NCBI GenBank assembly: GCA_003550665.1
Contig: PUKW01000095.1
Coordinates: 1 to 35,649 of the forward strand
Source: Paracoccaceae bacterium
Lineage (GTDB): Bacteria > Pseudomonadota > Alphaproteobacteria > Rhodobacterales > Rhodobacteraceae
Reading direction: 5' to 3'
DNA length: 35,649 nt
This document shows, piece after piece, positions 9,928-34,002 of this stretch. Made by a program: the position numbers and the translations under genes. The notes beneath the pieces are model-generated. The model searched no databases and was not told the origin of the DNA. It was given only the letters and a program-made list of their open reading frames with translations. How positions within the stretch are numbered: the stretch's first letter is position 1; each line of letters begins with the position of its first letter.

Positions 9928-10461
9928 TCAGCGCAGCGCGGCGAGTTCGGTCTCGATGCTCGTGGCGCGCGATTGCATCGCGCCATCGGTGTCGAGGCCA
10001 GGGTGATTGCTCAGGAATTCGCGGATATCTGACTGCGCGGCCTCGAGCAGCGGCACCAGCTCGGCGGTGTCGGCGCCGTCGGCGCGGCGCACGCCGGCGG
10101 CCTCGTGGCGGGCGGTGCCGCGCACGGAGCGCGCGCTCGCACGGATCGAATCACTTTCGCTTTCCAGAAGCTCCCCGGCCGCCGTCGCGGCATCCGCGAA
10201 TCGGTCGGCGCGCAGCAGCGTGTGGGCGTATTCGAGGCGAACCCGGTCATCGACGGGGCTGCCCGCATCCAGGATCGCCTCGTAACCGCGCGTCGCGCGC
10301 GGGTAGTCGCCCGCCTCGAGTGCCTGCCTTGCTGCCGTGTAATCGGCGCGAAACCCGGCGTCGTCGTCGGGTGTCCCGACCCCCGAGCAGGCGGCGAGCA
10401 GGACGCAGAGCGCCGTGAGGCGCAGGGCGCGTCGCGCACGCGGTGGGGGCGGAATTGGCAT
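9928..10461 (-). CDS. Small lipoprotein, TPR-like helical content; possible pilotin candidate
   Basis: Signal peptide with lipobox 'LCVLLAAC|SG'; 'ARQALEAGDYPRATRGYEAILDAG' resembles a TPR unit; divergent from gspC. Confidence 0.75.
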   Translation of the reverse strand: MPIPPPPRARRALRLTALCVLLAACSGVGTPDDDAGFRADYTAARQALEAGDYPRATRGYEAILDAGSPVDDRVRLEYAHTLLRADRFADAATAAGELLESESDSIRASARSVRGTARHEAAGVRRADGADTAELVPLLEAAQSDIREFLSNHPGLDTDGAMQSRATSIETELAALR

Positions 10462-10540
10462 TCGGGTGTCCCGCAGGTTTCCTTATCCGCGGGATCGTAT
10501 GTATGCTGCCCCCCCATGTCGACACGAAACTCCCGGCGAC

Positions 10541-10546
10541 AGGAGG
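10541..10546 (+). promoter_or_regulatory. Shine-Dalgarno AGGAGG for gspC
   Basis: AGGAGG then 7 nt then GTG at 10554, in frame with the GspC-like ORF. Confidence 0.6.
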
Positions 10547-10553
10547 CCGCATC

Positions 10554-11057
10554 GTGACGCAGCGCCGCAAATCGACCACCCGGCCGCGGGGCGGGGCGCT
10601 GTGGCTGGTGCTGGGCGCCGTGGCGCTGGGCTACGGTGGCGGCGCGCTTGCGCTGGCGCTGCTGCCGATGGAGGGTGCAACGCCGGTCGCGGCGACGCTG
10701 CGCGATGTGCCCGAGGCGGCCGAGCCCGAGGCGCCCGAGCCGGCGGGTGCGCGCAGCTGGGCGCCCGTATTCGGCACTGCCGCGCCCGAGCCCGCCGCCG
10801 AGCCCGAACCCGAGGAGACGTTCGACTACGCGCTGTACGGGCTGGCCGCGGGCGGGTCGGATGGCTGGGCGGTGCTCGATGACGGGTCGGGGCAGCGAAT
10901 CGTGCGCGCAGGCGATACGCTGCCGGGCGGCGAGACGGTGCGCGAGGTCCGCGCAGAGGGGGTGATCCTCGACGGATCGGACGGCCCGCTGATCGTGAGC
11001 TTCGAGCCGGGTGAGGCGCGGGAAATGTTGGGCGAACGGGGAGACGATGATGGGTGA
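10554..11057 (+). CDS. gspC: Type II secretion GspC-like inner-membrane protein (short, HR domain only)
   Basis: GTG start suggested by SD at 10541 (the ORF track opens at 10443). One TM 'GGALWLVLGAVALGYGGGALALALL', Pro/Glu-rich linker, then HR-like 'YALYGLAAGGSDGWAVLDDGSGQRIVRAGDTLPGGETVREVRAEGVIL'; directly upstream of and overlapping gspD. Confidence 0.75.
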   Translation: MTQRRKSTTRPRGGALWLVLGAVALGYGGGALALALLPMEGATPVAATLRDVPEAAEPEAPEPAGARSWAPVFGTAAPEPAAEPEPEETFDYALYGLAAGGSDGWAVLDDGSGQRIVRAGDTLPGGETVREVRAEGVILDGSDGPLIVSFEPGEAREMLGERGDDDG

Positions 11058-13002
11058 ATGGATGCGCGCGGGGCGGCTCATCGCGATTGTCGCGGTGTTG
11101 AGCGCCGCGAATCCGGGGCTGCTGCGCGCGCAGACGGTGCTCGATATGCGCGATGTGGAGCTGCGCAGCTTCGTCGAGATCGTCGCCGAGCAGACCGGGC
11201 GCAACTATGTCATCGATCCGCAGGTTTCGGGCACCGTGACAGTGGTCGCACCCGACGAGGTCTCCCCCGAGGCGATCTACGAGATCTTTCGCAACGTGCT
11301 CGAACTCAACCGGCTGACGATCGTCGAGGGCAGTGACGCCGACCGGATCGTGCCCACCGCCGGCGCGAGCGAACTCAGCGGTCCCGGCGATGATCACACG
11401 CTGCGCGGCAGCGCCTACGAGACGCGGGTGATCCCGATCACGGCGCGTGACATGGACGAGGTCGTGGAAGCGATCGTGCCGCTCGTGCCCTCGGACGCCG
11501 CGATCACGCCGCTGCGCTCGCAGGGGCTGCTCGTGCTGTCGGATCGGCGCGACAACCTCGCGCGCATCGAGGATCTGGTGCGCCGGCTCGACGGTGCCGG
11601 CCGCCGCGAGGTCGAGGTGATCCCGCTCAATGACGCGAATGCCGGCGATCTTCTCAATGTCATCGACGGGCTCGAGGTGGTCCCGGCCGGGTCGAACATC
11701 TCGGCCGACACCAGCGCCAACACGATGGTGCTGTCGGGGCCGCCCGAGTTCCGCGACCGGATGCGCCGGCTGATCCGCCAGATGGACAGCCCGCAGCAGG
11801 CCGCCGTCTCGCGCGTGGTGCCGCTCGACTTCGCGGAATCGGAGGTGCTCGCCGAGGTGCTCACGCAGTCGGTCGGTGCGGCGGCCGGCGAGGACGGTGA
11901 CGGCGAGATCACCATCGTCGCCGAGCCCCAGAGCAACGCCATCGTCGTCAACGCGCCGAGCGACCGGATCGACACCATCGTCGAATCGGTCCGCCAGCTC
12001 GATGCGCAGCCCGACCAGGTGCTGATCGAGGCGGTCGTCTTCGAGATGGCCAGCGAGAAGTTCTCCGACCTGTCGGTGCAGTTCGGCGGCGTGCTCAACG
12101 ATGCGATCGGGGGCGGAACCTCCTTCGAGATGGAGGGGCGCGATTCGCTCCTCACGATGCTGAGCGCGGCGATGGCGGGGCTGACGCCGGACCCCGGCAG
12201 CGGCGGCGGTATCGGCGCCGTCGCCCAGGGTAATTTCGCCGGGCTCCTCACCGCCGTGGCGCGCGAGCAGACGACGCGGCTGCTCTCTACGCCCTCGGTG
12301 CTGGCGCTCAACAACCAGGATGCCGAGATCGTCGTTGCCGAAAACGTGCCCTTCGTGACGGGCAGCTTCTCGACGGTGGGCGACAGCGCGATCCCCGAAA
12401 GCCCCTTCGAGACCATCGAGCGCCAGGATGTGGGGCTCACGCTCAATGTGCGCCCGCAGATCAACCGCGGCGGCACGGTGCGCATGGAAATCTCGCAGGA
12501 GGTCTCGAACCTGACCGGCTCCACCTCGGCGGCGGGCGGCGAGATTACCGCGCGGCGCAGCCTCGAGACCACGGTGATGGTCGATGACGGGCGGGTCATC
12601 CTGCTCGGCGGGCTCATGGAGGAGGACGATACCCAGCGCAGCGACGGGGTGCCGGTGCTGAGCAGCGTGCCGCTGATCGGGCGGCTCTTCGAGGGGTCGA
12701 GCGCGCGCGAGGGCCAGCGGATGCTGCTCCTGATGCTGCGCCCGCGGGTGATCCGCGATCACCAGGAAGCCGCCGAGGTCACGCGCCAGGTCGCCGACGG
12801 CACCGAAACGCTCGGCCGCCAGCTCGAGGCCCGCACAGCTGGCAATCCGAACAATCCCGCCAACACGGCCGGCGACAATCCCGCGCCCTTCGGCGGGGTG
12901 AACCCCGAGCTGTCCTTCACCAGCACGAGCGCCGACGCCGCCACGCGCGAGCGCAATTTTCCGGGCCTGCCGCCGCGCCTCGAATTCGGCGCGGATCGCT
13001 AG
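11047..13002 (+). CDS. gspD: Type II secretion secretin GspD
   Basis: N0 'TVLDMRDVELRSFVEIVAEQTGRNYVIDPQVSGTVTV', secretin core 'RLLSTPSVLALNNQDAEIVVAENVPFVTG...VGLTLNVRPQIN', 'DDGRVILLGGLMEED...VPLIGRLFEGSS'. ATG at 11047 overlaps the gspC stop. Confidence 0.95.
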   Translation: MMGEWMRAGRLIAIVAVLSAANPGLLRAQTVLDMRDVELRSFVEIVAEQTGRNYVIDPQVSGTVTVVAPDEVSPEAIYEIFRNVLELNRLTIVEGSDADRIVPTAGASELSGPGDDHTLRGSAYETRVIPITARDMDEVVEAIVPLVPSDAAITPLRSQGLLVLSDRRDNLARIEDLVRRLDGAGRREVEVIPLNDANAGDLLNVIDGLEVVPAGSNISADTSANTMVLSGPPEFRDRMRRLIRQMDSPQQAAVSRVVPLDFAESEVLAEVLTQSVGAAAGEDGDGEITIVAEPQSNAIVVNAPSDRIDTIVESVRQLDAQPDQVLIEAVVFEMASEKFSDLSVQFGGVLNDAIGGGTSFEMEGRDSLLTMLSAAMAGLTPDPGSGGGIGAVAQGNFAGLLTAVAREQTTRLLSTPSVLALNNQDAEIVVAENVPFVTGSFSTVGDSAIPESPFETIERQDVGLTLNVRPQINRGGTVRMEISQEVSNLTGSTSAAGGEITARRSLETTVMVDDGRVILLGGLMEEDDTQRSDGVPVLSSVPLIGRLFEGSSAREGQRMLLLMLRPRVIRDHQEAAEVTRQVADGTETLGRQLEARTAGNPNNPANTAGDNPAPFGGVNPELSFTSTSADAATRERNFPGLPPRLEFGADR

Positions 13003-13011
13003 GGGCGCGGC

Positions 13012-14460
13012 ATGGAGCGGCGCGATCTCGGCTTTGCATTCGCGCGCGACAACCGGGTCGCCATCGATGGCGAACGGCTGGTGACGGGGCCCGAGCCGAC
13101 CATGGCGGGGCTGCGTGAGGCGCGCCGGGTCGCCGGGCGCCCGCTCACCCCCGAGCCCTGCGACGCGGCCGGGTTTCAAAGCCGCCTCGCTGCGCTGTTC
13201 GATGATGCCCAGGCGCGCGAGGAGGCCGTCGAGGTCGCCTTCGACATCGCCGATGGCGAGCAGCGCGATGGCGCGCGCGATATTCTCGAGGACCCCGAGG
13301 ACGCGCCGGTGATCCAGCTCGTCAACCAGCTCCTGCGCCGGGCGGTGCGGCTCGGGGCATCGGATCTGCATATCGAGCCGCACGAGGAGGGGCTGCGCGC
13401 GCGCATGCGCCTCGACGGGACACTGCAGACGGCGCTCGACCGGCGGGACGTGCCGGGGCGGCGCGTGGTCTCGCGGCTCAAGGTGATGGCCGGGCTCGAC
13501 ATCGCCGAGACGCGGCTGCCGCAGGACGGGCGCATCGCGCTGCGTCTCGGCGGCCGGGCGATCGATGTGCGCATGTCCTCGCTTCCGGGGCATTACGGCG
13601 AGCGGGTGGTGCTGCGGCTGCTGGACCGCTCGGAGGGGCTGGTGCCGCTCGACGCGCTCGGGCTCGGCGCCGATCAGGCGGAGCTGTTGCAGCGCCTCGC
13701 CGCGCAGCCCAACGGCATCATCCTCGCCACCGGGCCGACCGGCTCGGGCAAGACGACGACGCTCTATTCGCTGCTGCAGCTCGCCGACCGCGGCGAGCGC
13801 AACATCGTCACCGTCGAGGACCCGGTCGAATACGATCTGCCCGGCGTATCGCAATCGCAGGTCAATGCCGAGATCGGCATGACCTTCGCGATCGGGTTGC
13901 GCGCCGTGCTGCGCCAGGACCCGGACGTGATCCTCGTGGGCGAGATCCGCGACACCGAGACCGCGACGGTCGCCGCCGAGGCGGCGCTGACCGGCCATCT
14001 CGTCTTCTCCTCGCTGCACGCCAACAGCGCGCTCGCCACCATCGTGCGGCTGCGCGAGCTCGGCGTGGACAACTACCTGATCTCGGCGACGCTGCGCGGC
14101 GTGATCGCCCAGCGGCTCCTGCGCCGGCTCTGCGCGCAGTGCAGCGTGCCCCACGCCCCGAGCGACGCGGAGGCGGCGCTTTACCACGACGGCGGGGTCA
14201 AGCCGCCCGAGCGGCTGCATGCGGCAAGCGGCTGCGCGGCCTGCGAGCAGACGGGGTATTCCGGGCGTATCGGGGTGTTCGAGATCGTCGCCATCGACGA
14301 CGCGCTGCGCGGCGAGATCGATGCGGGCGCCTCCGAGCAGCGCATGCGCGAGCTTGGCCGCGCGCCCGAAGCCGGGCTGTTCGCGCGCGGGCTGTCGCGC
14401 GCGGCGCGCGGCGAGACCTCGCTCGCCGAGGTGTCGCGCGTGCTCGGCGACACGCAATGA
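13012..14460 (+). CDS. gspE: Type II secretion ATPase GspE
   Basis: Walker A 'ATGPTGSGKTTTLYSLL', Asp box, 'GEIRDTETATVAAEAALTGHLVFSSLHANSA', CxxC...CxxC zinc motif (CAQC...CAAC). Confidence 0.97.
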   Translation: MERRDLGFAFARDNRVAIDGERLVTGPEPTMAGLREARRVAGRPLTPEPCDAAGFQSRLAALFDDAQAREEAVEVAFDIADGEQRDGARDILEDPEDAPVIQLVNQLLRRAVRLGASDLHIEPHEEGLRARMRLDGTLQTALDRRDVPGRRVVSRLKVMAGLDIAETRLPQDGRIALRLGGRAIDVRMSSLPGHYGERVVLRLLDRSEGLVPLDALGLGADQAELLQRLAAQPNGIILATGPTGSGKTTTLYSLLQLADRGERNIVTVEDPVEYDLPGVSQSQVNAEIGMTFAIGLRAVLRQDPDVILVGEIRDTETATVAAEAALTGHLVFSSLHANSALATIVRLRELGVDNYLISATLRGVIAQRLLRRLCAQCSVPHAPSDAEAALYHDGGVKPPERLHAASGCAACEQTGYSGRIGVFEIVAIDDALRGEIDAGASEQRMRELGRAPEAGLFARGLSRAARGETSLAEVSRVLGDTQ

Positions 14461-15671
14461 GGTCCTATGGCTACGTCGCCTACACGCCCGAGGGCCGCCG
14501 CCGCCGCGGCGTCGTCGTGGCCGAGAGCGAGGCCGAGGCCTCCGAGCAGATCGGCGCCAAGGGGCTGTTGCCTGCGGAGATCACGCCGCGCGGCGGGGCA
14601 GGGGCGCCCGCGCTGCGCCGGCGCGGTTTCGCGCGGCGGATCGATCGCGACATGCTCGCCGTCTTCACGCGGCAGATGGCGGTGCTGCTTGCGGCCGGGC
14701 TCGCGGCGGATGCGGCCCTCGACGCCGTGCAGAGTTCGGCCAGCGCGCCCAGCATCGAGGGCCTCGCCGCCGAAGCCAAGGCCGGGCTGATGCAGGGCGA
14801 TCCGCTCTCGGAGGCGCTCGGGCGCGGGGGCGAGCTGCCGCCCTATTACCTGGCCGCTGTCCGCGCCGGCGAGCATTCCGGCGAACTCGCCGCCGTCTTT
14901 GAGACCCTCGCTGAGCATCTCGAGAATTCCGCGAGCGAGCGCGCGCAGCTCGCCTCGGCGCTGATCTACCCGGCCTTCGTGACGGTGGTCGCGCTGCTGG
15001 TGTGCGGGGTGCTGATGGTGACGGTGGCGCCCGAGATCGTGGCGATGTTCGAGGCGTCGGGACAGGAGCTGCCGGGGCTGACGCAGGCGATGCTCGCCGT
15101 GGTGGCGGTGATCGAGCGGCACTGGCCGCTCATCGTCGGGGGCCTGGCGGGGTTGGTGCTGCTGGGGATCGCGTCGGGCCGGGTGCCGGCGCTGCGGGCG
15201 CGGCGCGACCGGATGCTGCTCGCCGCGCCGGTGACGCGGCGCTTCATGCGCATGGCGGCGGCGGCGCAGTATCTGCGCACGCTGGCGCTCGTGATCAATG
15301 CGCGGCTGCCGCTTGACGCGGCGCTGCGTCATGCCGCGGGGGTGCTGTCGGTGCGCCCGTTCCGCGCCCAGGCCGAGGCGGCGGGCGAGGGCCTGCGCCG
15401 GGGCGAGAGCCTCGCCGCGGCGCTGCGCCGCGTGGATTTCCTGCACCCCGTCGCGCGCCAGCTCGTCGAGGCGGGCGAGGCCTCGGCGCGGGTCGGCCCG
15501 ATGACCGAGCGCGCCGCAATGCTGGCCGAAAGCTGGATGCGCACCGAGCGCAAGCGCATCGCGGTGCTGCTCGAGCCCCTGTCGATGGTGCTCGTGGGCG
15601 GGCTGGTTCTGGTGATCGTGTTGGCGATCCTGCTGCCGATCTTCGACATGCAGGCGATGGTGCAGGGCTGA
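14457..15671 (+). CDS. gspF: Type II secretion platform protein GspF
   Basis: MRSYGYVAYTPEGRRRRGVVVAESEAEA...; ATG at 14457 overlaps the gspE stop (ATGA); 'FTRQMAVLLAAGLAADAALDAV', C-terminal 'RKRIAVLLEPLSMVLVGGLVLVIVLAILLPIFDMQAMV'. Confidence 0.95.
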   Translation: MRSYGYVAYTPEGRRRRGVVVAESEAEASEQIGAKGLLPAEITPRGGAGAPALRRRGFARRIDRDMLAVFTRQMAVLLAAGLAADAALDAVQSSASAPSIEGLAAEAKAGLMQGDPLSEALGRGGELPPYYLAAVRAGEHSGELAAVFETLAEHLENSASERAQLASALIYPAFVTVVALLVCGVLMVTVAPEIVAMFEASGQELPGLTQAMLAVVAVIERHWPLIVGGLAGLVLLGIASGRVPALRARRDRMLLAAPVTRRFMRMAAAAQYLRTLALVINARLPLDAALRHAAGVLSVRPFRAQAEAAGEGLRRGESLAAALRRVDFLHPVARQLVEAGEASARVGPMTERAAMLAESWMRTERKRIAVLLEPLSMVLVGGLVLVIVLAILLPIFDMQAMVQG

Positions 15672-16418
15672 TCAGCCCGGCCCCGGAAGCGTCGCGCGCA
15701 GCACGCCGTTCTCGAGCCCGACGCGCGCGCGCCACTCCTCGGGCAGCTCCGCCGCATCCGCCGCCATCGTCAGCGTCAGCTCCACCGCCCCGCTATCGGC
15801 GCGCGCTTCGACCTGCGCCTCCGCCGCGCCGTCGTCGAGCGCGGCGGTGAACGCCCAGTCACCTGCTGCGCGCAGCCGCAATCGCGCCGGCCCGCTGCCC
15901 AGATCGAGCCCGTCGAGCGTGACGGCCTCGAGCCTGCCCTGCGCTTCGAGCGTGGCAAGCGTTCCCGCGCGCAGGTCGAACCGGCCCGCGCCGCCCGACA
16001 CCGCGACCTGCCCGTCCGATGCGAGCGGCGCCTGCGTCGCGGCGTTGCTTGCATCCGCCAGAAGGGGCGCGAGGGCCGCATTTCCGGAAAGATCCGCAAG
16101 TTGCAGCGTCTCCGGCACCGCCGGTGACAGGGTGGCCGTGGCCGCGATCCGCGCGCCCGGCGAGGTCAGTTCGACGCGCCAGCGCAGCCCGTCGCGACTC
16201 AGCCCCGCGAGCGACCAGCGCAGCACCGCACCATGGGTGCCCGGATTGCCCGCCCCGGCGCGGCCGCGCCAGAGCCCGGCATCGGCGGCCACCGACTCGG
16301 TCCAGCCGGGCAGCGCCGCGCCCGCCACCGCGCGCAGATGGCCCATGCGCCCCTCCGACAGCGCCGCCGCCGCGAGCCCCAGCGCGAGCCCCATCAGCGC
16401 CGCCGCCAGCCGGATCAC
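15672..16418 (-). CDS. gspN: Type II secretion protein GspN
   Basis: N-terminal TM; 'AAALPGWTESVAADAGLWRGRAGAG'; last gene of the minus-strand gsp run after gspM. Confidence 0.75.
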   Translation of the reverse strand: MIRLAAALMGLALGLAAAALSEGRMGHLRAVAGAALPGWTESVAADAGLWRGRAGAGNPGTHGAVLRWSLAGLSRDGLRWRVELTSPGARIAATATLSPAVPETLQLADLSGNAALAPLLADASNAATQAPLASDGQVAVSGGAGRFDLRAGTLATLEAQGRLEAVTLDGLDLGSGPARLRLRAAGDWAFTAALDDGAAEAQVEARADSGAVELTLTMAADAAELPEEWRARVGLENGVLRATLPGPG

Positions 16419-16915
16419 GAGCGCGGCTCCAGCACGACCTCGGCGGCGACCGTCGCGGCGCTGTCACCGCGTTCGATCCGCAGCGTGGCGAGGGTATAGC
16501 CTGCCTCGGCCTCGGTTTCATCGAGCCAGGGCATGAGCCGGGTGAAGGGCACCTCCGCAAAGCTCAGCGTGACCCCGTCGCCGCCCGTGCCGCCGATCTG
16601 ATCGACGGCGTCGCGCAGCCCGGCGTCGGTGAGGCTGGCTTCGAGGCCGCTCAGCCCGACCGGGTCGCTGGCGGCGGGCTCTGCCGCGGCGTCGGTGGCG
16701 GGCAGGGCGCCAAGCTCGGCGCGGCGCGCATCCAGCCAGGCGCGCTGCGCCTGCGCATCGTCGAGTGCGGTTTGCGCGGCCGCGCGGCGCTCCAGCAGGG
16801 GCTGCGCGACGCCGAAGATCAGCCCGGCCGGCAGCACAACGAAAGCCAGCACCGCGAGCATGAGCCGTTCGCGCCGCGTCAGCCGCGCGAGCGCAAGGGC
16901 GAGACGATGCGTCAT
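16415..16915 (-). CDS. gspM: Type II secretion protein GspM
   Basis: 'LTRRERLMLAVLAFVVLPAGLIFGVAQPLLERRAAAQTALDDAQAQRAWL...' N-terminal TM plus coiled coil, between gspL and gspN. Confidence 0.82.
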   Translation of the reverse strand: MTHRLALALARLTRRERLMLAVLAFVVLPAGLIFGVAQPLLERRAAAQTALDDAQAQRAWLDARRAELGALPATDAAAEPAASDPVGLSGLEASLTDAGLRDAVDQIGGTGGDGVTLSFAEVPFTRLMPWLDETEAEAGYTLATLRIERGDSAATVAAEVVLEPRS

Positions 16916-16948
16916 CGAGGTTCTCTCCGTTCCCGCGGCGCCGTCATC

Positions 16949-18160
16949 TCAACCCTCCCCCCGCTCGAGGATGATGGTGCCGGTCACGCCATTGCCCGCC
17001 GCGCTCGACTGGCCGACCCGCACGTCGAGCCCCTGCGTACGCAGTGCCGCCGCGAGCGAGTCGAGCGCCGCGAAATCCGCCACCGTCAGCTCGAGCCGGA
17101 TCTCCCCGTCGGGCTGCAGGACGGCCGCGGACAGCCGCGCCTCGGTGTCGTCGATGACCGCCGCGGCGTCATGGAGCCCGTCGAGCGGGCCGGTGGCGGC
17201 CTCTTCGGGTCCGGCCTCGGTGCGGCGCGCGTCGAGCGCGCGGGTGACCTGGGCGCGCACATCGGTGATCGGACCTTCGGGGATGAAGTCGCGGCGCACA
17301 TCCGCATGGATCTGTGCGCGCAGATCGGCGGCGGCATCGTACGTGCGCCGCGTATCGAGCTCGACCGCCGCGGCCCAGGCGGCAAAGCCCGCGACCGCGA
17401 GCGCCGCGGGCAGACGCAGCGCCGCCAGCCGCGCCTGAAACGCGGCACTGCGCGCGCCGAGTTCGGCGCTCAGATCGAGGGTCAGCTCGCCATGCGCAAG
17501 GCGGCGCGGCGGCGCGATCGTGTCCGCGAGGTCCTGCGCCGAGGACACGATCGGCGGCGCATCGGGCCCCGACAACACCGTGCGCAGCGCCGCATCAGCG
17601 GGCCCGGTCCACAGGATCGCGGCCGGGGCGGGGCTATCCGCAAGGGCCCGCTCGAGCATCACCGCGGCGAGCGCCGGCTCGGCACTGAACCCGTCGCGCG
17701 GGCCCAGCCGGGCGCGCACCGGGCCATCGGCGTCGGTCTCTATGGTCCAGAGTCCCTCGGCCGTCGGCAGGGCCAGATAGTCGGGCAGGATCGCGGTGCA
17801 GGTCGCGCCCGCCGGGGCTACCTCGGCGCGCCACGCGGCCGCCGCGTGCGTCTCCACGACAAGCATGGCGCTCCAACCCGCCTCGGCCCCCGCGAGCCGT
17901 GCCGAATGCATCTCGGGCGCGCCCGCATCAGGGCCGAGCCGGTCGCGAAGCTGGCGGCGGGCGACGGCCTCGCGCGCCGGATCGCGCAGACCATCCGGCA
18001 ACTCGACCGGGACCAGCGGCGCCTGCGCGCCCGGCACCAGCGCCACGAACGGCGCGTCGGGCAACGCCGCCCCGTCGCCCAACCGGTGCAGGCGCGGCGG
18101 CGGCTTGGCGCGCGCGAGGGGCCAGCGGCGGGGCAAGGCGGATCGGGCGGGCGCCATCAC
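16949..18160 (-). CDS. gspL: Type II secretion protein GspL
   Basis: Cytoplasmic actin-like N-terminal part, TM 'LRLPAALAVAGFAAWAAAVEL', periplasmic ferredoxin-like C-terminus 'GEIRLELTVADFAALDSLAAALRTQGLDVRVGQSS'. Confidence 0.85.
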   Translation of the reverse strand: MMAPARSALPRRWPLARAKPPPRLHRLGDGAALPDAPFVALVPGAQAPLVPVELPDGLRDPAREAVARRQLRDRLGPDAGAPEMHSARLAGAEAGWSAMLVVETHAAAAWRAEVAPAGATCTAILPDYLALPTAEGLWTIETDADGPVRARLGPRDGFSAEPALAAVMLERALADSPAPAAILWTGPADAALRTVLSGPDAPPIVSSAQDLADTIAPPRRLAHGELTLDLSAELGARSAAFQARLAALRLPAALAVAGFAAWAAAVELDTRRTYDAAADLRAQIHADVRRDFIPEGPITDVRAQVTRALDARRTEAGPEEAATGPLDGLHDAAAVIDDTEARLSAAVLQPDGEIRLELTVADFAALDSLAAALRTQGLDVRVGQSSAAGNGVTGTIILERGEG

Positions 18161-19059
18161 TCGGCCTCCGGCAGCGACAGGACCACGCGGATGTCGCCAT
18201 CTGGCTCCGTCCGGTGCAGCACCAGTTTTCGCCCGTGCCGCGCATTGTCAAGCCGCACCGCCACGCGCAGCTCGAACCAGTCCGAGCCGGCGTCGATCAG
18301 ACCATCCGGGAACGCCTCGAGGGCCTCCTCGCCGAGCGGTTCGAGCACGCGGCCGTAGAAATCCGCGGCGTCGGTGAAGGGCTCGGCCTCGCGCGGCTCC
18401 AGCAGTTCGGCGGCGAAATCGGCATCGATGCCGAGGAACGCTGCGAACAGGGCCGGGTCCATCGTGTTGGGATTGAGCTGCGCCTCGGGCGGAAGCGCGG
18501 CCAGCAGCGGCGCGAGCGCGTCGATATCGGCGTCGTCGATGCCGTCGATATCGCGCAGCTCGGCGATGTCCAGGATCGGGCCGTCGGGCGGCGCGGCGGC
18601 GTCCCAGAGCCCGGCGCGGTTGGCGCCGGGGGTCACGGCGTCGGCAATGCGCGCGGCCCGCTCTGGGGCCACGTCCCGGGCCCCGGCAAGGCGGATCAGC
18701 GCGGCGCGCGGCGCATCGCCCCAATCCTCGGGCTCGGTCAGCCAGTTGACGTTGAAGCGACCCTGCAGATCGGCGATGTCCCAGTCGAGCTCGGCGCGGT
18801 CAATCTCCATGTCGCGGCGCGGCGTGGCCCAGTCCTGATCGAGATGGACGGGGGCGTCCGGCTCGGTGTCGTCCGCGAGAAGGGCGATGGCCATTGGCGG
18901 TGCGGCGGCGAGGTGCAGCCGCGCCTGGTCGGCGGCGCCCTGCGCGGCGCCGCGTTCGCGGGCCTGATCCCCGCGCGCCAGCAGCGCGACCGCCACCGCC
19001 GAGAGCGCCGCCACCACGATCAGCGCATTGATCAGCGCCATGCCGCGCGGCGCGCTCAT
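18157..19059 (-). CDS. gspK: Type II secretion minor pseudopilin GspK
   Basis: Prepilin-like 'APRG|MALINALIVVAALSAVAVALLARGDQARERG' lacking Glu at +5, as is usual for GspK; 'DLQGRFNVNWL', 'AQLNPNTMDPALFAAFLG'. Confidence 0.93.
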   Translation of the reverse strand: MSAPRGMALINALIVVAALSAVAVALLARGDQARERGAAQGAADQARLHLAAAPPMAIALLADDTEPDAPVHLDQDWATPRRDMEIDRAELDWDIADLQGRFNVNWLTEPEDWGDAPRAALIRLAGARDVAPERAARIADAVTPGANRAGLWDAAAPPDGPILDIAELRDIDGIDDADIDALAPLLAALPPEAQLNPNTMDPALFAAFLGIDADFAAELLEPREAEPFTDAADFYGRVLEPLGEEALEAFPDGLIDAGSDWFELRVAVRLDNARHGRKLVLHRTEPDGDIRVVLSLPEAE

Positions 19060-19628
19060 GGTGCGGTCACGAGGCGCAGCGTGCCGTGCCGCTCGGTGTC
19101 GATGCGCAACGCGATGCCGCGCGGTGGCGGCGTCTCGGTGCGCGGGCTGGGCAGCGCGTCTTCGGGGTCACGCGGGCCGCCGAGCGGTTCGGCCTCGAAG
19201 CCGGTCACGCCGGTGAGGATCACCGCCGCCGGCCCGCCATCGCCGCTCGACGGGACGAGGCGCGGCCAGCTGCGCCGCGTGAGGGTGTCCTCGGCGCGGT
19301 CATGCACCCATTCGACGCGCCCGATCCCGGTCTCGCCCGGCAGGCGCGGCTGGCCGCCGACGCTGAGGGCGAGGCGGCCGGGGGCGATTTCGGCGGGTGG
19401 TTGGGGGGCGCCGGTCGGCGGGTGAAAATCGGCCGGGACCACGGCGTCGAGATCGCTGCGCAGAAGGGCGAGGCCGCGCATCAGCTCGGCGGCGTCGTCA
19501 TCGGCGCGCGTGAGCGCGTCGCGGCTGCGGATCGAGCCCGACAGCGCCTGCAGCGCCATCACCGCCACCAGCGAGAAGATCGCCAGCACCGCGATCAGCT
19601 CGACGAGGGTGAAGCCGCGCGCCCTCAT
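19056..19628 (-). CDS. gspJ: Type II secretion minor pseudopilin GspJ
   Basis: 'MRARG|FTLVELIAVLAIFSLVAVMALQALSGSIRSRDAL' prepilin motif; ATG complement at 19626-19628 inside the longer track ORF. Confidence 0.92.
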   Translation of the reverse strand: MRARGFTLVELIAVLAIFSLVAVMALQALSGSIRSRDALTRADDDAAELMRGLALLRSDLDAVVPADFHPPTGAPQPPAEIAPGRLALSVGGQPRLPGETGIGRVEWVHDRAEDTLTRRSWPRLVPSSGDGGPAAVILTGVTGFEAEPLGGPRDPEDALPSPRTETPPPRGIALRIDTERHGTLRLVTAP

Positions 19629-19999
19629 GGGCCGGGCGATGCGCTGACGGTGGCGACGAGCCGCGCGCCGGGGCGGTCGGGGGTCGTCACGCGGATATCG
19701 GCCGCGATCAGCCCGCCCTCGGTCTCGGACTCGGCGATCTCGACGGTCCATGTGAACGGCCCCATCTCGACCTGCGCGGGCAGCTCGCGCCCCGCCTCGA
19801 GCCCGTGCAGCCGCAACTCCGCCGCGCGGTTGAGGGCCACCTGGTGGGCGAGGGTGCGCGCCGTCTGATCGCCGATCCCGCGCTGGGCGGCGTCGAGCGC
19901 GCGCATCGCGGCGAGCGTGCCGATCGACAGGATCGTGATGGCGATGACAAGCTCGATCAGCGTCACGCCGCGCGGCGGGCGCGTCACTCGGCGTGGCAT
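19625..19999 (-). CDS. gspI: Type II secretion minor pseudopilin GspI
   Basis: 'PPRG|VTLIELVIAITILSIGTLAAMRALDAAQRGIGDQTARTLAHQVALNRAAELRL' GspI signature; ATG complement at 19997-19999. Confidence 0.92.
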   Translation of the reverse strand: MPRRVTRPPRGVTLIELVIAITILSIGTLAAMRALDAAQRGIGDQTARTLAHQVALNRAAELRLHGLEAGRELPAQVEMGPFTWTVEIAESETEGGLIAADIRVTTPDRPGARLVATVSASPGP

Positions 20000-20475
20000 T
20001 CGAGCGGCTCCGGGCCGGAGGTGGCGCAGCGATGCGCCGCGCCGCGCGGGCCGAGGCGCAGCTCGAACGCGGTGCTGCGGCCATCGGGCAGAAAGCGCAC
20101 GGGCGGTTCGTCGTCGTCGGTCTCGGGCGTCGTGAGCGCGCCGCGGATCAGCTGCCCGTCGATGCGCCATTCGGACCGCTCGGGCAACGCGCCGCCGCCG
20201 ATGCGGCGCCAGCCATCCGCCTCGCGGCGCAGGATCTCCCAGCCGTCCCCGTCCGGGCGCAGCCCCGCCGGCGCGCGCGCGAGAATGGCGAGGTCGCGCG
20301 CACGCGCCACGCCGGCCTCCAGTGCCTCGGCGGTGCGCGCCGGGCTGGCCTCGCGGGTGCCGGTCAGCCGGCCCTCGGTGGCGAAGCCGAGCGTGACGGT
20401 GAGTGCGAGTACCGAGACGATGGTGACGACGATGACGAGCTCGATAAGCGAGAACCCCGCCGCCGCCCGCGTCAT
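19984..20475 (-). CDS. gspH: Type II secretion minor pseudopilin GspH
   Basis: 'MTRAAAG|FSLIELVIVVTIVSVLALTVTLGF' prepilin motif; position between gspG and gspI. Confidence 0.9.
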   Translation of the reverse strand: MTRAAAGFSLIELVIVVTIVSVLALTVTLGFATEGRLTGTREASPARTAEALEAGVARARDLAILARAPAGLRPDGDGWEILRREADGWRRIGGGALPERSEWRIDGQLIRGALTTPETDDDEPPVRFLPDGRSTAFELRLGPRGAAHRCATSGPEPLECHAE

Positions 20476-20930
20476 TCGATCGTCCAGTTGCCCAGCATCG
20501 CGTCCACGCCCTCGCCGCCCGGTTCGCCATCGGCGCCGTAGGTGTAGAGATCATAGGGGCCGTGCTGGCCGGGCGAGACATACTGGTAGTCGCGGCCCCA
20601 GGGGTCCTGCGGGATGCGGTCGATATAGCCGTTCTCGGCCCAGTTCGGCGGCTCCGGCTCGATGCTGGGCGGCTCGACGAGGGCGTCGAGGCCCTGCTCG
20701 GTGGTCGGGTAGGTGTGATTGTCGAGCCGGTAGAGATCGAGCGCGGAGGACAGCGCCGCGATGTCGGATTCGGCGCGCGCCACGCGGGCCTGGTCGGGTC
20801 GGTCGATCACCCGCGGCACGATCACCACGGCAAGGATCGACAGGATCACCACGACGACCATCAACTCAATCAGCGAAAAGCCGCGATCGGCTTTCCTCGG
20901 GGCGGCGGGTCGGTTACGTGCGCTGCGCAT
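20472..20930 (-). CDS. gspG: Type II secretion major pseudopilin GspG
   Basis: 'DRG|FSLIELMVVVVILSILAVVIVPRVIDRPDQARVARAESDIAALSSALDLYRLDNHTYPTTEQGLDALVEPP' is a GspG signature; ATG complement at 20928-20930. Confidence 0.97.
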   Translation of the reverse strand: MRSARNRPAAPRKADRGFSLIELMVVVVILSILAVVIVPRVIDRPDQARVARAESDIAALSSALDLYRLDNHTYPTTEQGLDALVEPPSIEPEPPNWAENGYIDRIPQDPWGRDYQYVSPGQHGPYDLYTYGADGEPGGEGVDAMLGNWTIE

Positions 20931-20990
20931 GACAGGGCAAGGATTACGCATTCGCGACCCCGCGCGCAATGGGGCACCGGGAGCCGCGGC

Positions 20991-21791
20991 TTGAGCGTGG
21001 CGGCGGAGATCGCGCGCGTGCTCGTCGTCGTGCTCGGCCCGGCGATGGGATCGGCGGCGGCGCTTCTGGCGGATCGGCTGCCGCGTGGCGAGCCGGTGGG
21101 GCTGACGCGCTCGCGGTGCCGGTCCTGCGGGCGGGTGCTCGGGGCGCGCGAGCTGGTGCCGGTGCTGTCCTGGCTCTGGCAGCGCGGGCGCTGTGCGGGG
21201 TGCGGCGCGGCGATCCCGGCCTGGCTGCTGCAGGCGGAGATCGCGGGGCTGGCGCTCGGGATCGGGGCGGCGCTCGTCGGGGCGGGGGCGGGGCAGGTGC
21301 TGCTCGGCGCGCTGGTGCTGTGGTGCCTGCTCGCGCTGACGCTCGCGGATCTGCGCCATTTCCGGTTGCCCGACGCGCTCACGGCGGCGCTGCTGGTGCT
21401 CGCAATCGGGCTGGCCGTGATCGGGGACGGGCGCCACTGGCCCGGCTGGCCGGAGCGGCTTGCCGGGGCGCTTGCGGGAGCGGCGCTGGGGGCCGGGGCG
21501 TTTGCGGCGCTGCGCGCGGCGTATCGCTGGCGGTCCGGGCGCGAGGGGCTCGGGGCGGGCGATGTCAAGCTGATGGCCGGGATCGGGGCGCTCACCGGGC
21601 CGGGGGCGCTGGCGGTGGTCACGCTGGTGGCGGGGGTGTCGGCGCTCGCCGTGGCGGGCTGGCGGGCGCGGGCGCGGGGGCGGCGGCTGCGCCGGGATGC
21701 GCGGCTGCCCTTCGGGGCGTTTCTCGCGATGGCGGCGGCGCTGGTGTGGCTGCTTACGGGCGCGCCGGCGCCCTTTCTCGCGCTGCGCTGA
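20991..21791 (+). CDS. gspO: Prepilin peptidase / N-methyltransferase (GspO/PilD type)
   Basis: 'RCRSCGRVLGARELVPVLSWLWQRGRCAGCGAAIPAWLL' CxxC pair, 'LADLRHFRLPDALT' and 'GAGDVKLMAGIGALTG' catalytic Asp motifs. Start is TTG 20991 or GTG 20997. Confidence 0.92.
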   Translation: MSVAAEIARVLVVVLGPAMGSAAALLADRLPRGEPVGLTRSRCRSCGRVLGARELVPVLSWLWQRGRCAGCGAAIPAWLLQAEIAGLALGIGAALVGAGAGQVLLGALVLWCLLALTLADLRHFRLPDALTAALLVLAIGLAVIGDGRHWPGWPERLAGALAGAALGAGAFAALRAAYRWRSGREGLGAGDVKLMAGIGALTGPGALAVVTLVAGVSALAVAGWRARARGRRLRRDARLPFGAFLAMAAALVWLLTGAPAPFLALR

Positions 21792-28954: not shown

Positions 28955-31846
28955 CTAGGAGTCCCCGCCCACACGCAGGATGTGGTCGCGCCCGCGCTTG
29001 ACGTAGCGCAGCGCGCTTTCGTCGATGGCGGCGACCCGGCCGCCATCGAGTTCGTCGCCCACGCCGACGCGCACCATCCGCCCGTTCGACATCCGGACCA
29101 GCGCGCGCCGGTCCGCGTTGCCGCCGAACACCCCGATCAGGTTGATCCGACGCAGATTGAGCATGCCGGCGTTGGTGGCTGCTTCCGCGACCTGCGCCGA
29201 GGCGGGTATATCCGGCGCACTCGGGGTCGGAGCGGACTCCGCCGGGGTGCTCGCGCCGCTGACGGGGGCGTCCGCCTGCGCGGCTTCGGCCTGCTGCGCC
29301 GCGGTCTCGGTGGCGCGCTGAACGGCCCGCGACTCGGCGAAATTCTGCGGCCGGTCGTCGGGTCGGGGCGCGGTCGCGACGGCGTTTTCGGTGGCGGTGG
29401 CGAAAGCGTCCTCGCGGGCGGCGATGACCTCTGCAGCGGCCTCGGAGACGCTGTCGGGGCGGGTGCGGGGCGCGGGGGCGCGCAGTTCGGCCGCTTGCGC
29501 GGCATCGGCAAGCGCGTCGGCGGTGTCGTCGCGCCGTGTCGCGTCGTCCTGAGCGGTCGCCGCGGTGGCGGCCGGGCGCGGCTCGGGCCGGAAATCGCTG
29601 AGGGCCGGGTCCGAGGCGATTGTCGGGGCGCTTTCAGGGGCCGTCGCGTCGAGGCGCGAGCGGGCCGCCTCGAACGCGGTTTCCGGTGTTACCGCCACGA
29701 TCCCGCCGCCATCGAGGGGCGGCGCGTCCGCGGCCCTGTCCGCCGCGCGCAGCGCCGGCGTCAGCGGCGGTGCGCCGGTCACGACCTCGATCGCGGGGCG
29801 CCGGCGGTCGAAGGCAATGTCGGGGGTGGCCGCGACGAGACCGCCACCGTCGAGCACCGGCGGCTGCGCCGCGACGGTGGCGAGATCGGGTGCGCGCGGG
29901 GCCGGGAGGATGGGCGGCTCGCCGATGGTGACCTCGACGGCAACGCGTTGCCGCTCGACGGCTGCGGGCGTTGTCGCCACCACGATGCCCGCGCCATCGA
30001 GAACGGGCGGTGTGGCCGTTTCGGTGTCGGGCGCGGCGGGGTCGGGGATGACGGGGGGCGCGCCAGTGACCACGTCGACCGGGACCGCGGCGCGCGCGAG
30101 CGCAGCATCCGGGGTGGCGGCGAGGATTGCGGCGGCGTCCGGCGGGGGCGCATCCGGCGCGGCCGTCCCCGTCCCGGAGCGCGAAGTGGGCAGCAACGGC
30201 GGCGGGCCGAGGACAACGTCGAACCGGTGGCGCGTGAAGGCCGCCTCGGGGGTGGCCGCCGCGATGCCGCCGCCGGACAGGGCGTATTCCCGTGCGGGCA
30301 CGATCGGCTCGGGAATGTGCGGACGCGACAGCGCGGACTGCGTCAGCGCGCCGATCGGCGGCGCATCGACGGGGATGCGCGGCGTGTCGAGCGCGCCGAC
30401 CCGGGTGGTATCCATCGCCCCGAAATCCGGGGTCGCGGGGGTCGCGGGAGCCTCGGTCGGCGGTGCGAACAGGACCTGCTCCTGGGTTTCGTCGAACCAC
30501 AGCGCCGTCGCCCACAACCCAACCGCCGCGGCGAGCAGAACCACTGCACCCCCGCCGAGCGCGAGGCGGCGCCGGCGGCGTGCCCGCTGCGCCTCCGCGG
30601 CGCCGAACACCGTGACGGGCTCATCACCATCCCCCGCACCCTCAGCCATACGCAATCGCCGCGGCTCGGGCGGGTGGGCCGTGGGCGGCGAGGCCGGGCC
30701 GCGACGCCGCCCCGTGAGCATCCCGGTTGCGCGCTTTGCGGCGGGCTTGCGCGCGGCCGGCCACGCACCCTTGCGACCACGCGTCTTGCGACCGGGTTTG
30801 GTGGCGGCGACCGGTGCGGAGGTGTCCGCCGGCGTGGAGTTGTCGGCCGGCGCCTGCGCGGCTTGCTCCGCAGGGTCGTTGTCGCCCGCATCCGTGGTAT
30901 CGGTGCGCTGCGGGGTGGCCGTTCCAAGGGCGTCACCGGCGGGCGACGCCGTCGGATCCGCCGGCGGCTCGGAGGTCCCGGCATCGCCATGCATCGGCGG
31001 CGCCGGTTGCGCAGGGGGCTCGCCAGGCGCTGTCCGGGCCGCACTTGCCGGTGCGGCGTGCTGGCCGCGGGCGGGCGCGGCAGCCGTGACACCCGTGGCG
31101 GCGGCACGCGCGCCGCGCGCTCGGGCAAGCAGGCCGTCCGGCGCCGAGGGCGCGCTTGCCGGCGCTCCCGGGGTCGTGTCCTTGAAATCCGCGCCTGCGG
31201 GCGCGGCGGATCGGGTCGGCGCCGGCGCGCCGGCGGCAGGGGTTTCGGACCCGTCTGGTTCGGATGGCGCGGCATCGGGGCGGGCGCCCTCGCGGATGAC
31301 GCAGCGATCCGGGGCGAGGGCATCGCCCTCGGGCAGAAGGGTATCGAGGGTGCTGCTGGCGCCGAAATCGGGCGCGCGCGGGAACTGCGCCTCATGCGGC
31401 GCGGCGGTAAAGCAGGCCGGGTTGAAGCGGTGGCGCCGCGCGATTTCCTCGGCCTGTTCGAGCGTTTCGCGCGCGACGAGCGCCACGCGCGCCGTGCCCG
31501 CCGAAACCTCCCAATCAAAGGCGATTTCATCGAGAGCGTAAGGGGTTTCGCCCTCGACGGCGGCCCTGATCTCGGCGCGCTGGCCGCCCGCGTCGGCGGC
31601 GGTGACCGCAACCTGCGTATAGCGGACTTCCGCCTCGGGGATCACGAGCGCGGTGGTAAACCCGCCCGGCGCACGCTCCTGGGCCTGTCGGCGAAGCTTT
31701 GCAAGTTCGACGTCAAGCGCCGCGGAATCCTTCAGCGCGACCGCGCCCACGCGCTGCCAGCCCTCCGCTCGGCGCTGCAGGAGGGTGATGCGGTCAAAGG
31801 ACAGATCAAGGGCGAACTCGGGTGTCATCACGTCAACATAGCACAT
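28955..31846 (-). CDS. Large membrane-anchored protein: PilM/GspL-like N-terminal region, basic linker, one TM, Pro/Ala-rich tandem repeats, GspC/PilP-like C-terminal domain
   Basis: N-term 'MTPEFALDLSFDRITLLQRRAEGWQRVGAVAL...IRAAVEGETPYALDEIAFDW', TM 'LALGGGAVVLLAAAVGLWATALWF' (about 30494-30570), repeats about 29577-30297, C-term 'LNLRRINLIGVFGGNADRRALVRMSNGRMVRVGVGDELDGGRVAAIDESALRYVKRGRDHILRV'. Alternative start ATG 31828. CDS existence is strong; domain assignment is inferred. Confidence 0.85.
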   Translation of the reverse strand: MCYVDVMTPEFALDLSFDRITLLQRRAEGWQRVGAVALKDSAALDVELAKLRRQAQERAPGGFTTALVIPEAEVRYTQVAVTAADAGGQRAEIRAAVEGETPYALDEIAFDWEVSAGTARVALVARETLEQAEEIARRHRFNPACFTAAPHEAQFPRAPDFGASSTLDTLLPEGDALAPDRCVIREGARPDAAPSEPDGSETPAAGAPAPTRSAAPAGADFKDTTPGAPASAPSAPDGLLARARGARAAATGVTAAAPARGQHAAPASAARTAPGEPPAQPAPPMHGDAGTSEPPADPTASPAGDALGTATPQRTDTTDAGDNDPAEQAAQAPADNSTPADTSAPVAATKPGRKTRGRKGAWPAARKPAAKRATGMLTGRRRGPASPPTAHPPEPRRLRMAEGAGDGDEPVTVFGAAEAQRARRRRRLALGGGAVVLLAAAVGLWATALWFDETQEQVLFAPPTEAPATPATPDFGAMDTTRVGALDTPRIPVDAPPIGALTQSALSRPHIPEPIVPAREYALSGGGIAAATPEAAFTRHRFDVVLGPPPLLPTSRSGTGTAAPDAPPPDAAAILAATPDAALARAAVPVDVVTGAPPVIPDPAAPDTETATPPVLDGAGIVVATTPAAVERQRVAVEVTIGEPPILPAPRAPDLATVAAQPPVLDGGGLVAATPDIAFDRRRPAIEVVTGAPPLTPALRAADRAADAPPLDGGGIVAVTPETAFEAARSRLDATAPESAPTIASDPALSDFRPEPRPAATAATAQDDATRRDDTADALADAAQAAELRAPAPRTRPDSVSEAAAEVIAAREDAFATATENAVATAPRPDDRPQNFAESRAVQRATETAAQQAEAAQADAPVSGASTPAESAPTPSAPDIPASAQVAEAATNAGMLNLRRINLIGVFGGNADRRALVRMSNGRMVRVGVGDELDGGRVAAIDESALRYVKRGRDHILRVGGDS
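29577..30297 (-). repeat. About five degenerate tandem protein repeats (roughly 45-50 aa) inside the large fusion-like protein
   Basis: Units of the form 'LDGGG(I/L)VAATPxxAFxRxRxxxEVVTGAPPxxPxxRAxD...PP' read in translation: REYALSGGGIAAATPEAAF.., PDAAAILAATPDAAL.., LDGAGIVVATTPAAV.., LDGGGLVAATPDIAF.., LDGGGIVAVTPETAF... Confidence 0.75.
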
Positions 31847-32013: not shown

Positions 32014-32703
32014 ATGGCGGGTATCGGTTTGGTGATTCGGACGATCGGGGCCGGGATCGCCATCGCGGCGGCGATCGCGGTTGCGGCGCAGGCTGACAAC
32101 GGCCGGATCACGGTTCATGGCGAGGGGCGCGCGGCCTCGGTCCCGGACATGGCGACGCTGAGCATCGGGGTGAGCGCGCGCGACGCTGCCGCCGAGGCGG
32201 CGATGGAGCAGGCGGCCGTGGCCATGGCGGCGGTGCGCACGCGGCTCACCGAGATCGGGATCGAGCGGCGCGACATGCAGACCGGGGTTCTGTCGCTGCA
32301 GCCGCGCCCCGACCGCGAGAGCGGCGAGGACGCCGGTTTCGAGGCGCGCAACGGGCTCGAGGTGACGGTGCGCGATCTCGATCTGCTCGGGCAGGCCCTC
32401 GATGCCGTGCTCGCCGAAGGGGTCAACGAGCTGCACGGGCTACGTTTCGGGCTGAACGACCTCGAACCGCTCACCGAGGAGGCGCGCCGCGCTGCCGTCG
32501 AAGATGCCCGCGCGCGCGCGGAGACCTACGCGGATGCGGCGGGCATCTCGCTCGGCCGGTTGATCAATCTGCGCGACGAGCATGTCTCGAACGGGCCGCG
32601 GCCGATGCTGCGCATGGAGAGCGCTGGTGACGTCGGGGACTCGCTTTCCGAGGGCGAGGTGACCGTGACCGCGCGGGTCACGGTCGATTACGGTTTCCGG
32701 TGA
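32014..32703 (+). CDS. SIMPL-domain (DUF541) protein, exported
   Basis: Signal peptide, then 'GRITVHGEGRAASVPDMATLSIGVSARDAAAEAAMEQAAVAMAAV', 'VNELHGLRFGLNDLEPLTEEARRAAVEDARARAETYADAAGISLGRLINL'. Confidence 0.93.
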   Translation: MAGIGLVIRTIGAGIAIAAAIAVAAQADNGRITVHGEGRAASVPDMATLSIGVSARDAAAEAAMEQAAVAMAAVRTRLTEIGIERRDMQTGVLSLQPRPDRESGEDAGFEARNGLEVTVRDLDLLGQALDAVLAEGVNELHGLRFGLNDLEPLTEEARRAAVEDARARAETYADAAGISLGRLINLRDEHVSNGPRPMLRMESAGDVGDSLSEGEVTVTARVTVDYGFR

Positions 32704-32712
32704 GACGCGCGG

Positions 32713-34002
32713 TCAGCCGGCGGCGCTGAGGGCCTGATCGAGATCGGCGATCAGGTCGTCGGCGTCCTCGATCCCGATCGACAGGCGCACCACGTTGGGG
32801 TCGGCGCCGGCAGCCTTCTGTTGCGCCTCGGTGAGCTGGCGATGCGTCGTCGAGGCCGAGTGGATCACCAGCGAACGCGTGTCGCCGAGATTGGCGACGT
32901 GGCTGAACAACTCGAGGCTGTCCACGAAGCGCACGCAGGCGTCGTAGCCGCCCTTGAGCGCGAAGGTGAAGATCGAGCTCGCGCCCCTGGGGCAGATCCG
33001 GGTCATGCGCTCGGCATAGGGCGAGGAGGGCAGCCCGGCATAGCTAACGCGCTCCACCGCAGGGTGTTTCTCGAGCCATTCGGCCACCCGGAGTGCATTT
33101 GCGCAGTGCTTATCCATGCGCAGGCTGAGCGTCTCGATCCCGAGCAGCGTGTAATGCGCCGCCTGCGGGTTGAGCGTCATGCCGAGGTCGCGCAGCCCCA
33201 CCGCGATGGAGTGAAACGTGAAGCCGAGCGGGCCGAAGGCCTCGGCAAAGGTCAGGCCGTGATAGGCGGGCTCGGGCTCGGACAGCGAGGGGAACTTGTC
33301 GCTCGCCGACCAGTCGAATTTGCCCGAATCGACGACGCATCCCCCCGTGACGGTGCCGTTGCCCGTCAGATACTTGGTCATCGAGTTGACCACGAGCGTG
33401 GCGCCGTGCTCGATGGGCCGGCACAGATACGGCGTCGCGGTGGTGTTGTCCACGATGAGCGGCAGGCCCGCCTTGTCGGCGATGCGCGCCATTGCATCGA
33501 GATCGGTGATGTAGCCGCCGGGGTTGGCAATCGACTCGCAGAAGATGGCACGGGTGTTCTCGTCGATGGCGGCCTCGACGGCGTCGAGGTCGTCGGTGTC
33601 GACGAAGCTCGCGCTCCAGCCGAAGCGCTTGAGCGATTGCGAGAACTGCGTGACCGTGCCGCCGTAGAGCCGGGTCGAGGCGACGATGTTACAGCCCGGC
33701 CGCATGAGCGGAAACAGCGCGAGGATCTGCGCGGCGTGCCCCGAGGAGCAGCACACCGCCCCCGCGCCGCCCTCGAGCGCGGCCATGCGCGCCTGCAATG
33801 CGTTCACGGTCGGGTTGGTCAGGCGAGAGTAGATATAGCCGACCTCCTCGAGCCCGAAGAGCCGCGCAGCATGTTCGGCGTCGCGAAACACGTAGGAGGT
33901 GGTCTGGTAGATCGGCGTCTGGCGCGCGCCCGTCGCCGGGTCGGGCGCCGCGCCGCCATGTATCTGAAGCGTGTCGAATCCGTGCTGCCGCGTGTCCGTC
34001 AT
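32713..34002 (-). CDS. metY: O-acetylhomoserine aminocarboxypropyltransferase (PLP-dependent Cys/Met metabolism family)
   Basis: 'GFDTLQIHGGAAPDPATGARQTPIYQTTSYVFRDAEHAARLFGLEEVGYIYSRLTNPTVNALQARMAALEGGAGAVCCSSGHAA', 'VVNSMTKYLTGNGTVTGGCVVDSG'. Confidence 0.93.
   Translation of the reverse strand: MTDTRQHGFDTLQIHGGAAPDPATGARQTPIYQTTSYVFRDAEHAARLFGLEEVGYIYSRLTNPTVNALQARMAALEGGAGAVCCSSGHAAQILALFPLMRPGCNIVASTRLYGGTVTQFSQSLKRFGWSASFVDTDDLDAVEAAIDENTRAIFCESIANPGGYITDLDAMARIADKAGLPLIVDNTTATPYLCRPIEHGATLVVNSMTKYLTGNGTVTGGCVVDSGKFDWSASDKFPSLSEPEPAYHGLTFAEAFGPLGFTFHSIAVGLRDLGMTLNPQAAHYTLLGIETLSLRMDKHCANALRVAEWLEKHPAVERVSYAGLPSSPYAERMTRICPRGASSIFTFALKGGYDACVRFVDSLELFSHVANLGDTRSLVIHSASTTHRQLTEAQQKAAGADPNVVRLSIGIEDADDLIADLDQALSAAG

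Follow-up and report, generated by a model that had tools for sequence, protein, structure and literature searches.

A single-chain fusion of GspL-type and GspC/PilP-type domains is carried by Rhodobacteraceae genomes with and without a secretin

What does a protein do that carries a GspL-like domain at one end and a GspC-like domain at the other, on a single chain, when its genome may or may not encode the secretion machine from which such domains are known? The question is raised by a gene in the window, by which we mean the whole stretch of 35,649 nucleotides of Paracoccaceae bacterium DNA that was analysed. The gene and its surroundings are laid out as follows.

28955..31828, minus strand: complete coding region, read from Met7, the conserved start, through the stop codon (the first ATG is at 31846), from the ORF listing and the MKP/MTPxFAL start in relatives
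31334..31828, minus strand: N-terminal cytoplasmic domain of about 165 aa with the GspL/PilM (actin-like) fold, from AF2, Foldseek and weak Pfam matches
30566..31333, minus strand: cytoplasmic Pro/Ala-rich linker, 39-591 aa in relatives, from composition and lengths
30509..30565, minus strand: single TM segment LALGGGAVVLLAAAVGLWA, residues 428-446, from hydropathy and an architecture repeated in 80 loci
29165..30508, minus strand: periplasmic Pro/Ala-rich stretch, 301-529 aa from TM to HR in relatives, from alignment and linker lengths
28958..29164, minus strand: C-terminal HR domain (GspC-HR/PilP fold), the most conserved part, from AF2, Foldseek, TIGR03021 and Pfam
32014..32703, plus strand: SIMPL (DUF541) protein, divergent neighbour, from Pfam
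32713..34002, minus strand: metZ-type Cys/Met PLP enzyme, upstream neighbour and synteny anchor, from Pfam
10443..20960: T2SS cluster of the window, separate from the fusion locus, with gspC, D, E and F on the plus strand and gspN, M, L, K, J, I, H and G on the minus strand, from Pfam and reading

The open reading frame on the minus strand (28955-31846) encodes 963 aa. Translation probably begins at Met7 (base 31828): the sequence MTPEFALDL there lines up with MKPxFALxL in the relatives, and the six codons before it are not conserved. We compared 81 loci, namely the window and 80 named genome contigs with up to about 10 kb of flanking sequence to either side, and found both end domains within one ORF in 80 of them. 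Because of this, and of the low dN/dS described below, the ORF is not a chance GC-rich reading frame. Nearly all relatives have one TM segment, as called by hydropathy alone, and in the 80 loci at least 301 aa separate it from the HR domain. The length of the cytoplasmic linker, by contrast, differs up to fifteen-fold (39 to 591 aa), and this linker is the part shortened most in small genomes. In the window, the periplasmic stretch contains degenerate repeats at about 29642-30277, read directly from the sequence. It also carries several conserved family motifs, a feature absent from the original prediction: YAxTGIW, DAVALP, LVxPTPEGTLNPDGV and RPxxRP. These came from the full alignment of 97 full-length members; a regular-expression search for a periplasmic motif gave no match.

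To identify the two ends, we used AlphaFold with alignments of 44 (N-end) and 41 (C-end) sequences and searched the models with Foldseek. The N-domain model (pLDDT 95.5) matched the cytoplasmic domain of GspL best (4pht, E 5e-8; 1yf5), together with PilM (E 1e-6). The core of the C-domain model has a pLDDT above 90, and its top twelve PDB matches were PilP and GspC-HR structures, the latter including 3oss_C and 6hcg_e, with one GspB at rank 12. Sequence comparison pointed the same way at lower strength. In the N-ends of 22 members, Pfam found T2SSL in five and PilM_2 in three, all weakly (E up to 1), and PilP matched 19 of 19 family C-ends, each weakly. The C-end scored E 4e-7 against TIGR03021 (pilP_fam), with 31.0 bits, below the curated cut-off of 34.65, and in a profile-profile comparison with 12 gsp families gspC came first. 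The same type of comparison between the N-domain and Rhodobacteraceae GspL was not significant; the identity of the N-domain was settled by the GspL of other families and by the structure search. A PDB sequence search with the single protein returned no match, and we discarded weak profile matches to CENP-S and ribosomal L2 as accidental. A Pfam scan of the full-length single sequence gave PilP alone, weakly, and the periplasmic domain of GspL (GspL_C or PilN-like) was not found. The architecture of a GspL-type domain, a TM segment and an HR domain in one chain is thus well supported. The original prediction had assigned both termini in this way and had pointed out that a single chain of this kind could span the envelope; the models agree with the assignment, and the N-domain, one TM segment, a long periplasmic stretch and the HR domain in one ORF would in principle allow such a span.

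The original prediction also expected the family to be conserved in relatives, and this held: a profile search of 200 genomes of Rhodobacteraceae, a large marine family, nearly all from different genera, found the N-domain in 192, nearly always in single copy. Many of these genomes are drafts, metagenome-derived assemblies included, and absence calls refer to Pfam/NCBIfam models at E 1e-3. Three of the eight genomes missed by the N-domain profile (G106, G139, G166) contain divergent but complete fusions adjoining metZ. At the same locus, two more (G019, G208) encode proteins limited to the HR domain and a signal or TM segment; in G046 there is a fragment of the HR domain. In the fragmented assemblies of G164 and G196, neither the N-domain nor the HR domain was found. 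In a wider sample of 290 genomes of the class, which took in Rhodobacteraceae as well, every match beyond that family was weak, and the clearest of those read were GspL genes of T2SS operons. The literature searched contained no description of the fusion family. In two genomes the gene is split into N-part and C-part ORFs (G018, L042:6857-8340, where the two overlap; G076, L223:2618-3915), which may reflect a frameshift or a protein naturally made in two parts. We also noticed a second, short HR-only ORF of 101-146 aa away from the main locus in some genomes (L206:5588-6025 in G210; G084:C41; G154:C4; G131:C5).

We next consider how this distribution relates to secretins. GspD (TIGR02517, over the curated cut-off) was present in 29 of the 200 genomes, all 29 of which have the N-domain, as do 163 of the 171 genomes without GspD over the cut-off. 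For INDEPENDENCE from secretins, we took 20 genomes that TIGR02517 does not match and ran the general secretin model PF00263 on them; 17 contained no PF00263 secretin. PF00482 (GspF/PilC/TadB-type) was absent from all 17, PF00437 (the GspE-superfamily ATPase) was over the cut-off in only one, and a search for the STN (N0-like) domain found it in none; STN-domain receptors were accordingly dropped as candidates for an N0-like partner in these genomes. Even so, 16 of the 17 encode the N-domain, TM segment and HR domain together in a single open frame (569-1118 aa), and in the seventeenth (G047) the N-domain alone was detected. Independence of the fusion from a secretin is therefore well supported. 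The original prediction had proposed co-occurrence with gspD as a check and had named a distribution independent of any secretin among the findings that would count against it; this is the distribution that we observed. The accessory or second-adaptor role that it suggested, which would tie the protein to T2SS, T4P or a secretin, does not survive the retention of the whole fusion in 16 of 17 genomes that have neither a secretin nor a GspF-family protein.

The T2SS in the window has to be read in the same light. As originally predicted, the window encodes its own GspL and GspC, both among the gsp genes found by Pfam (C, D, E, F, G, K, L and M; gspN, J, I and H were called by position and reading only). 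The cluster lies about 8 kb from the fusion gene and is most likely incidental to it, because gsp genes were found near the fusion in none of the 80 loci outside the window. The stable neighbours of the fusion are metZ, upstream on the same strand in 68 of 81 loci, and SIMPL, divergent in 73 of 81. The region 10443-21791 consists of two opposed T2SS arms, gspCDEF (plus) and gspNMLKJIHG (minus), followed by a prepilin-peptidase-like ORF (plus) by reading only. Elsewhere in the genome of the window there are two Tad-like loci (contigs C203 and C286, PF00482 and PF00437), and PF00263 detected no secretin besides the GspD of the window.

Where, then, did the fusion come from? Two genomes, G021 and G012, contain separate, unfused gspL, gspM and HR genes, and these unfused forms are the only ones adjoining gsp genes. 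In G021, an exact overlap of 97 bases connects contigs C119 and C23, and the joined sequence has the order metZ - gspE - gspL - gspM - HR, with the operon directly downstream of metZ, which is the position of the fusion in other genomes; Pfam assigns T2SSE and MshEN to gspE, and T2SSM_b to gspM. In G012, one contig carries metZ and gspL, separated by other genes, and a different contig carries gspM and, after it, the HR gene. The first N-profile had included the unfused GspL rows of these two genomes, so it was rebuilt without them; the rebuilt profile still matched the unfused GspL (E 1e-17 and 5e-16) and matched the GspL genes of other families at E 4e-8 and weaker. Outside Rhodobacteraceae, an independent C-profile matched an HR gene in the same T2SS operons in which the N-profile found GspL. 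In the N-domain tree, built from short sequences and with modest support (0.80 for the clade that includes the divergent L043 member), the GspL of G021 and G012 forms the sister group of the fusion clade, and GspL from Rhodobacteraceae T2SS lies outside. The T2SS of the window is of another kind, with T2SSM and GspL_C by Pfam. The simplest history, fairly well supported by synteny, gene order and the tree, would be that the fusion was born at the metZ locus from a gspE-gspL-gspM-HR operon, when gspL and the HR gene became one and both gspM and the periplasmic portion of GspL disappeared; this ancestry is drawn from two relatives, one of them through the joining of two contigs. The G021 genes (L044, L196) resemble a T2SS half-machine beside metZ, and the only secretin and GspF-family matches in that genome belong to its Tad locus.

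The pattern of selection indicates which part of the protein matters most. Median pairwise dN/dS, calculated from few and non-independent pairs (16 per end domain, 12 for the linkers), was about 0.04 in the HR domain, 0.15 in the N-domain and 0.21 in the linkers. Some residues are invariant in the fusion family, the β1 segment of the HR domain (NLIGVYG) is strongly conserved, and the fusion is retained even in genomes of 2.1-2.5 Mb. We regard the HR domain as the central part of the protein because it has the lowest dN/dS and because G019 and G208 keep HR-only forms. The clear constraint on the N-domain, in turn, argues that it has some role in most lineages, beyond what a tether would explain.

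From these observations, we consider it probable that the fusion is a stand-alone core Rhodobacteraceae envelope protein, built from T2SS platform parts, that acts as a trans-envelope tether. The tether function itself we infer from the linker length, the dominance of the HR domain and the known binding mode of GspC/PilP. The TM segment would fix the protein in the inner membrane, and the protein would act as a tether or scaffold, with the HR domain reaching over the periplasm to a non-secretin envelope partner. GspC-HR binds the secretin N0 domain mainly via its first strands, by β1 strand addition (PMC3169554). Because GspC-HR uses β1 on N0 and the β1 of the fusion is strongly conserved, the predicted contact would use the same edge strand. 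The cytoplasmic domain may tune or localise the tether and would be dispensable in some lineages, and the conserved periplasmic motifs may bind other envelope parts. Whether the fusion also represents the inner-membrane half of a T2SS condensed to one chain and exapted as a machine-independent, periplasm-spanning protein, with its HR domain on a new envelope partner, we hold to be an even call.

Other readings have to be set against the tether. Service as an accessory regulator or second inner-membrane/secretin adaptor of a T2SS (or of Tad/T4P) would fit the folds of the two ends, the T2SS cluster nearby in the window and the N-domain in every GspD-positive genome; however, the N-domain is nearly as regular in genomes without over-cut-off GspD, the whole fusion persists where a secretin and GspF-family protein are lacking, and gsp genes adjoin it at none of the other loci, so that we find this reading very improbable, and as a general role it is refuted by the fusion in secretin-less genomes. 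Proteins of the SIMPL (DUF541) family form periplasmic rings, as in Brucella BP26, and the HR domain might work with the divergently encoded SIMPL as a ring that replaces the secretin. The constancy of this neighbour speaks for such a pairing, but 12 of 33 genomes checked that have some form of the fusion gave no SIMPL match, which rules out SIMPL as an obligate partner and makes the pairing very improbable.

One-piece signalling, in which the HR domain and linker motifs sense the state of the envelope and the FtsA/GspL-like domain relays it to a cytoplasmic or divisome partner, deserves more weight, and we rate it as unlikely rather than improbable. It would account for the conservation of the N-domain, whose fold is shared with FtsA in the Foldseek search, and it would suit a protein with one TM segment and, in part of the family, a juxtamembrane (R)MTVFGAR motif. 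Yet only 22 of the 80 loci contain that motif, the conserved neighbours include no evident regulator linked to the gene, and G019 and G208 keep the HR part alone. Least credible of all is a decaying T2SS relic without function: the fusion does stand in the position of a partial T2SS operon, and G018 and G076 have it in two pieces, but strong purifying selection at both ends, invariant residues, and near-universal retention that extends to genomes of 2.1-2.5 Mb are not what a relic would leave.

The preferred reading, a stand-alone tether, can be placed against the systems from which its parts are known. With GspL of T2SS (PF05134/PF12693) the fusion shares the fold (4pht) and the order of a cytoplasmic domain followed by one TM segment, and the fusion-family profile, run on other alphaproteobacteria, matches GspL encoded in T2SS operons. 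It differs in its shorter N-domain (about 165 aa, against about 230 aa in solved GspL chains), in having no GspL_C or PilN-type periplasmic domain, whereas the GspL of the window has GspL_C, and in the absence of a GspE-family partner from nearly all secretin-less genomes. The actin-like fold of the N-domain is also that of PilM of T4P (PF11104), but PilM is nucleotide-bound, has about 350 aa and binds the PilN tail (5eou), whereas the N-domain of the fusion is smaller and membrane-tethered.

At the other end, PilP of T4P (PF04351, TIGR03021) gave the best structural and sequence matches. PilP is a lipoprotein, whereas in the fusion the HR domain closes a chain that has a TM segment, and the score against TIGR03021 stays under its curated cut-off. 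GspC HR (PF11356) has the same fold and likewise lies C-terminal to a TM-anchored linker, but in the fusion this linker is 300-530 aa long and a secretin in the genome is not needed. A match to HR/PilP or to GspL alone should not be taken as a T2SS or T4P in a genome. HR domains of the GspC/PilP type are not known except as partners of secretins, and for GspL/PilM the only known role is that of a platform adaptor in type IV filament machines. A fused pair conserved across a bacterial family, and kept without such machines, would show that these modules can work outside them, and the fusion would name a core envelope factor of Rhodobacteraceae.
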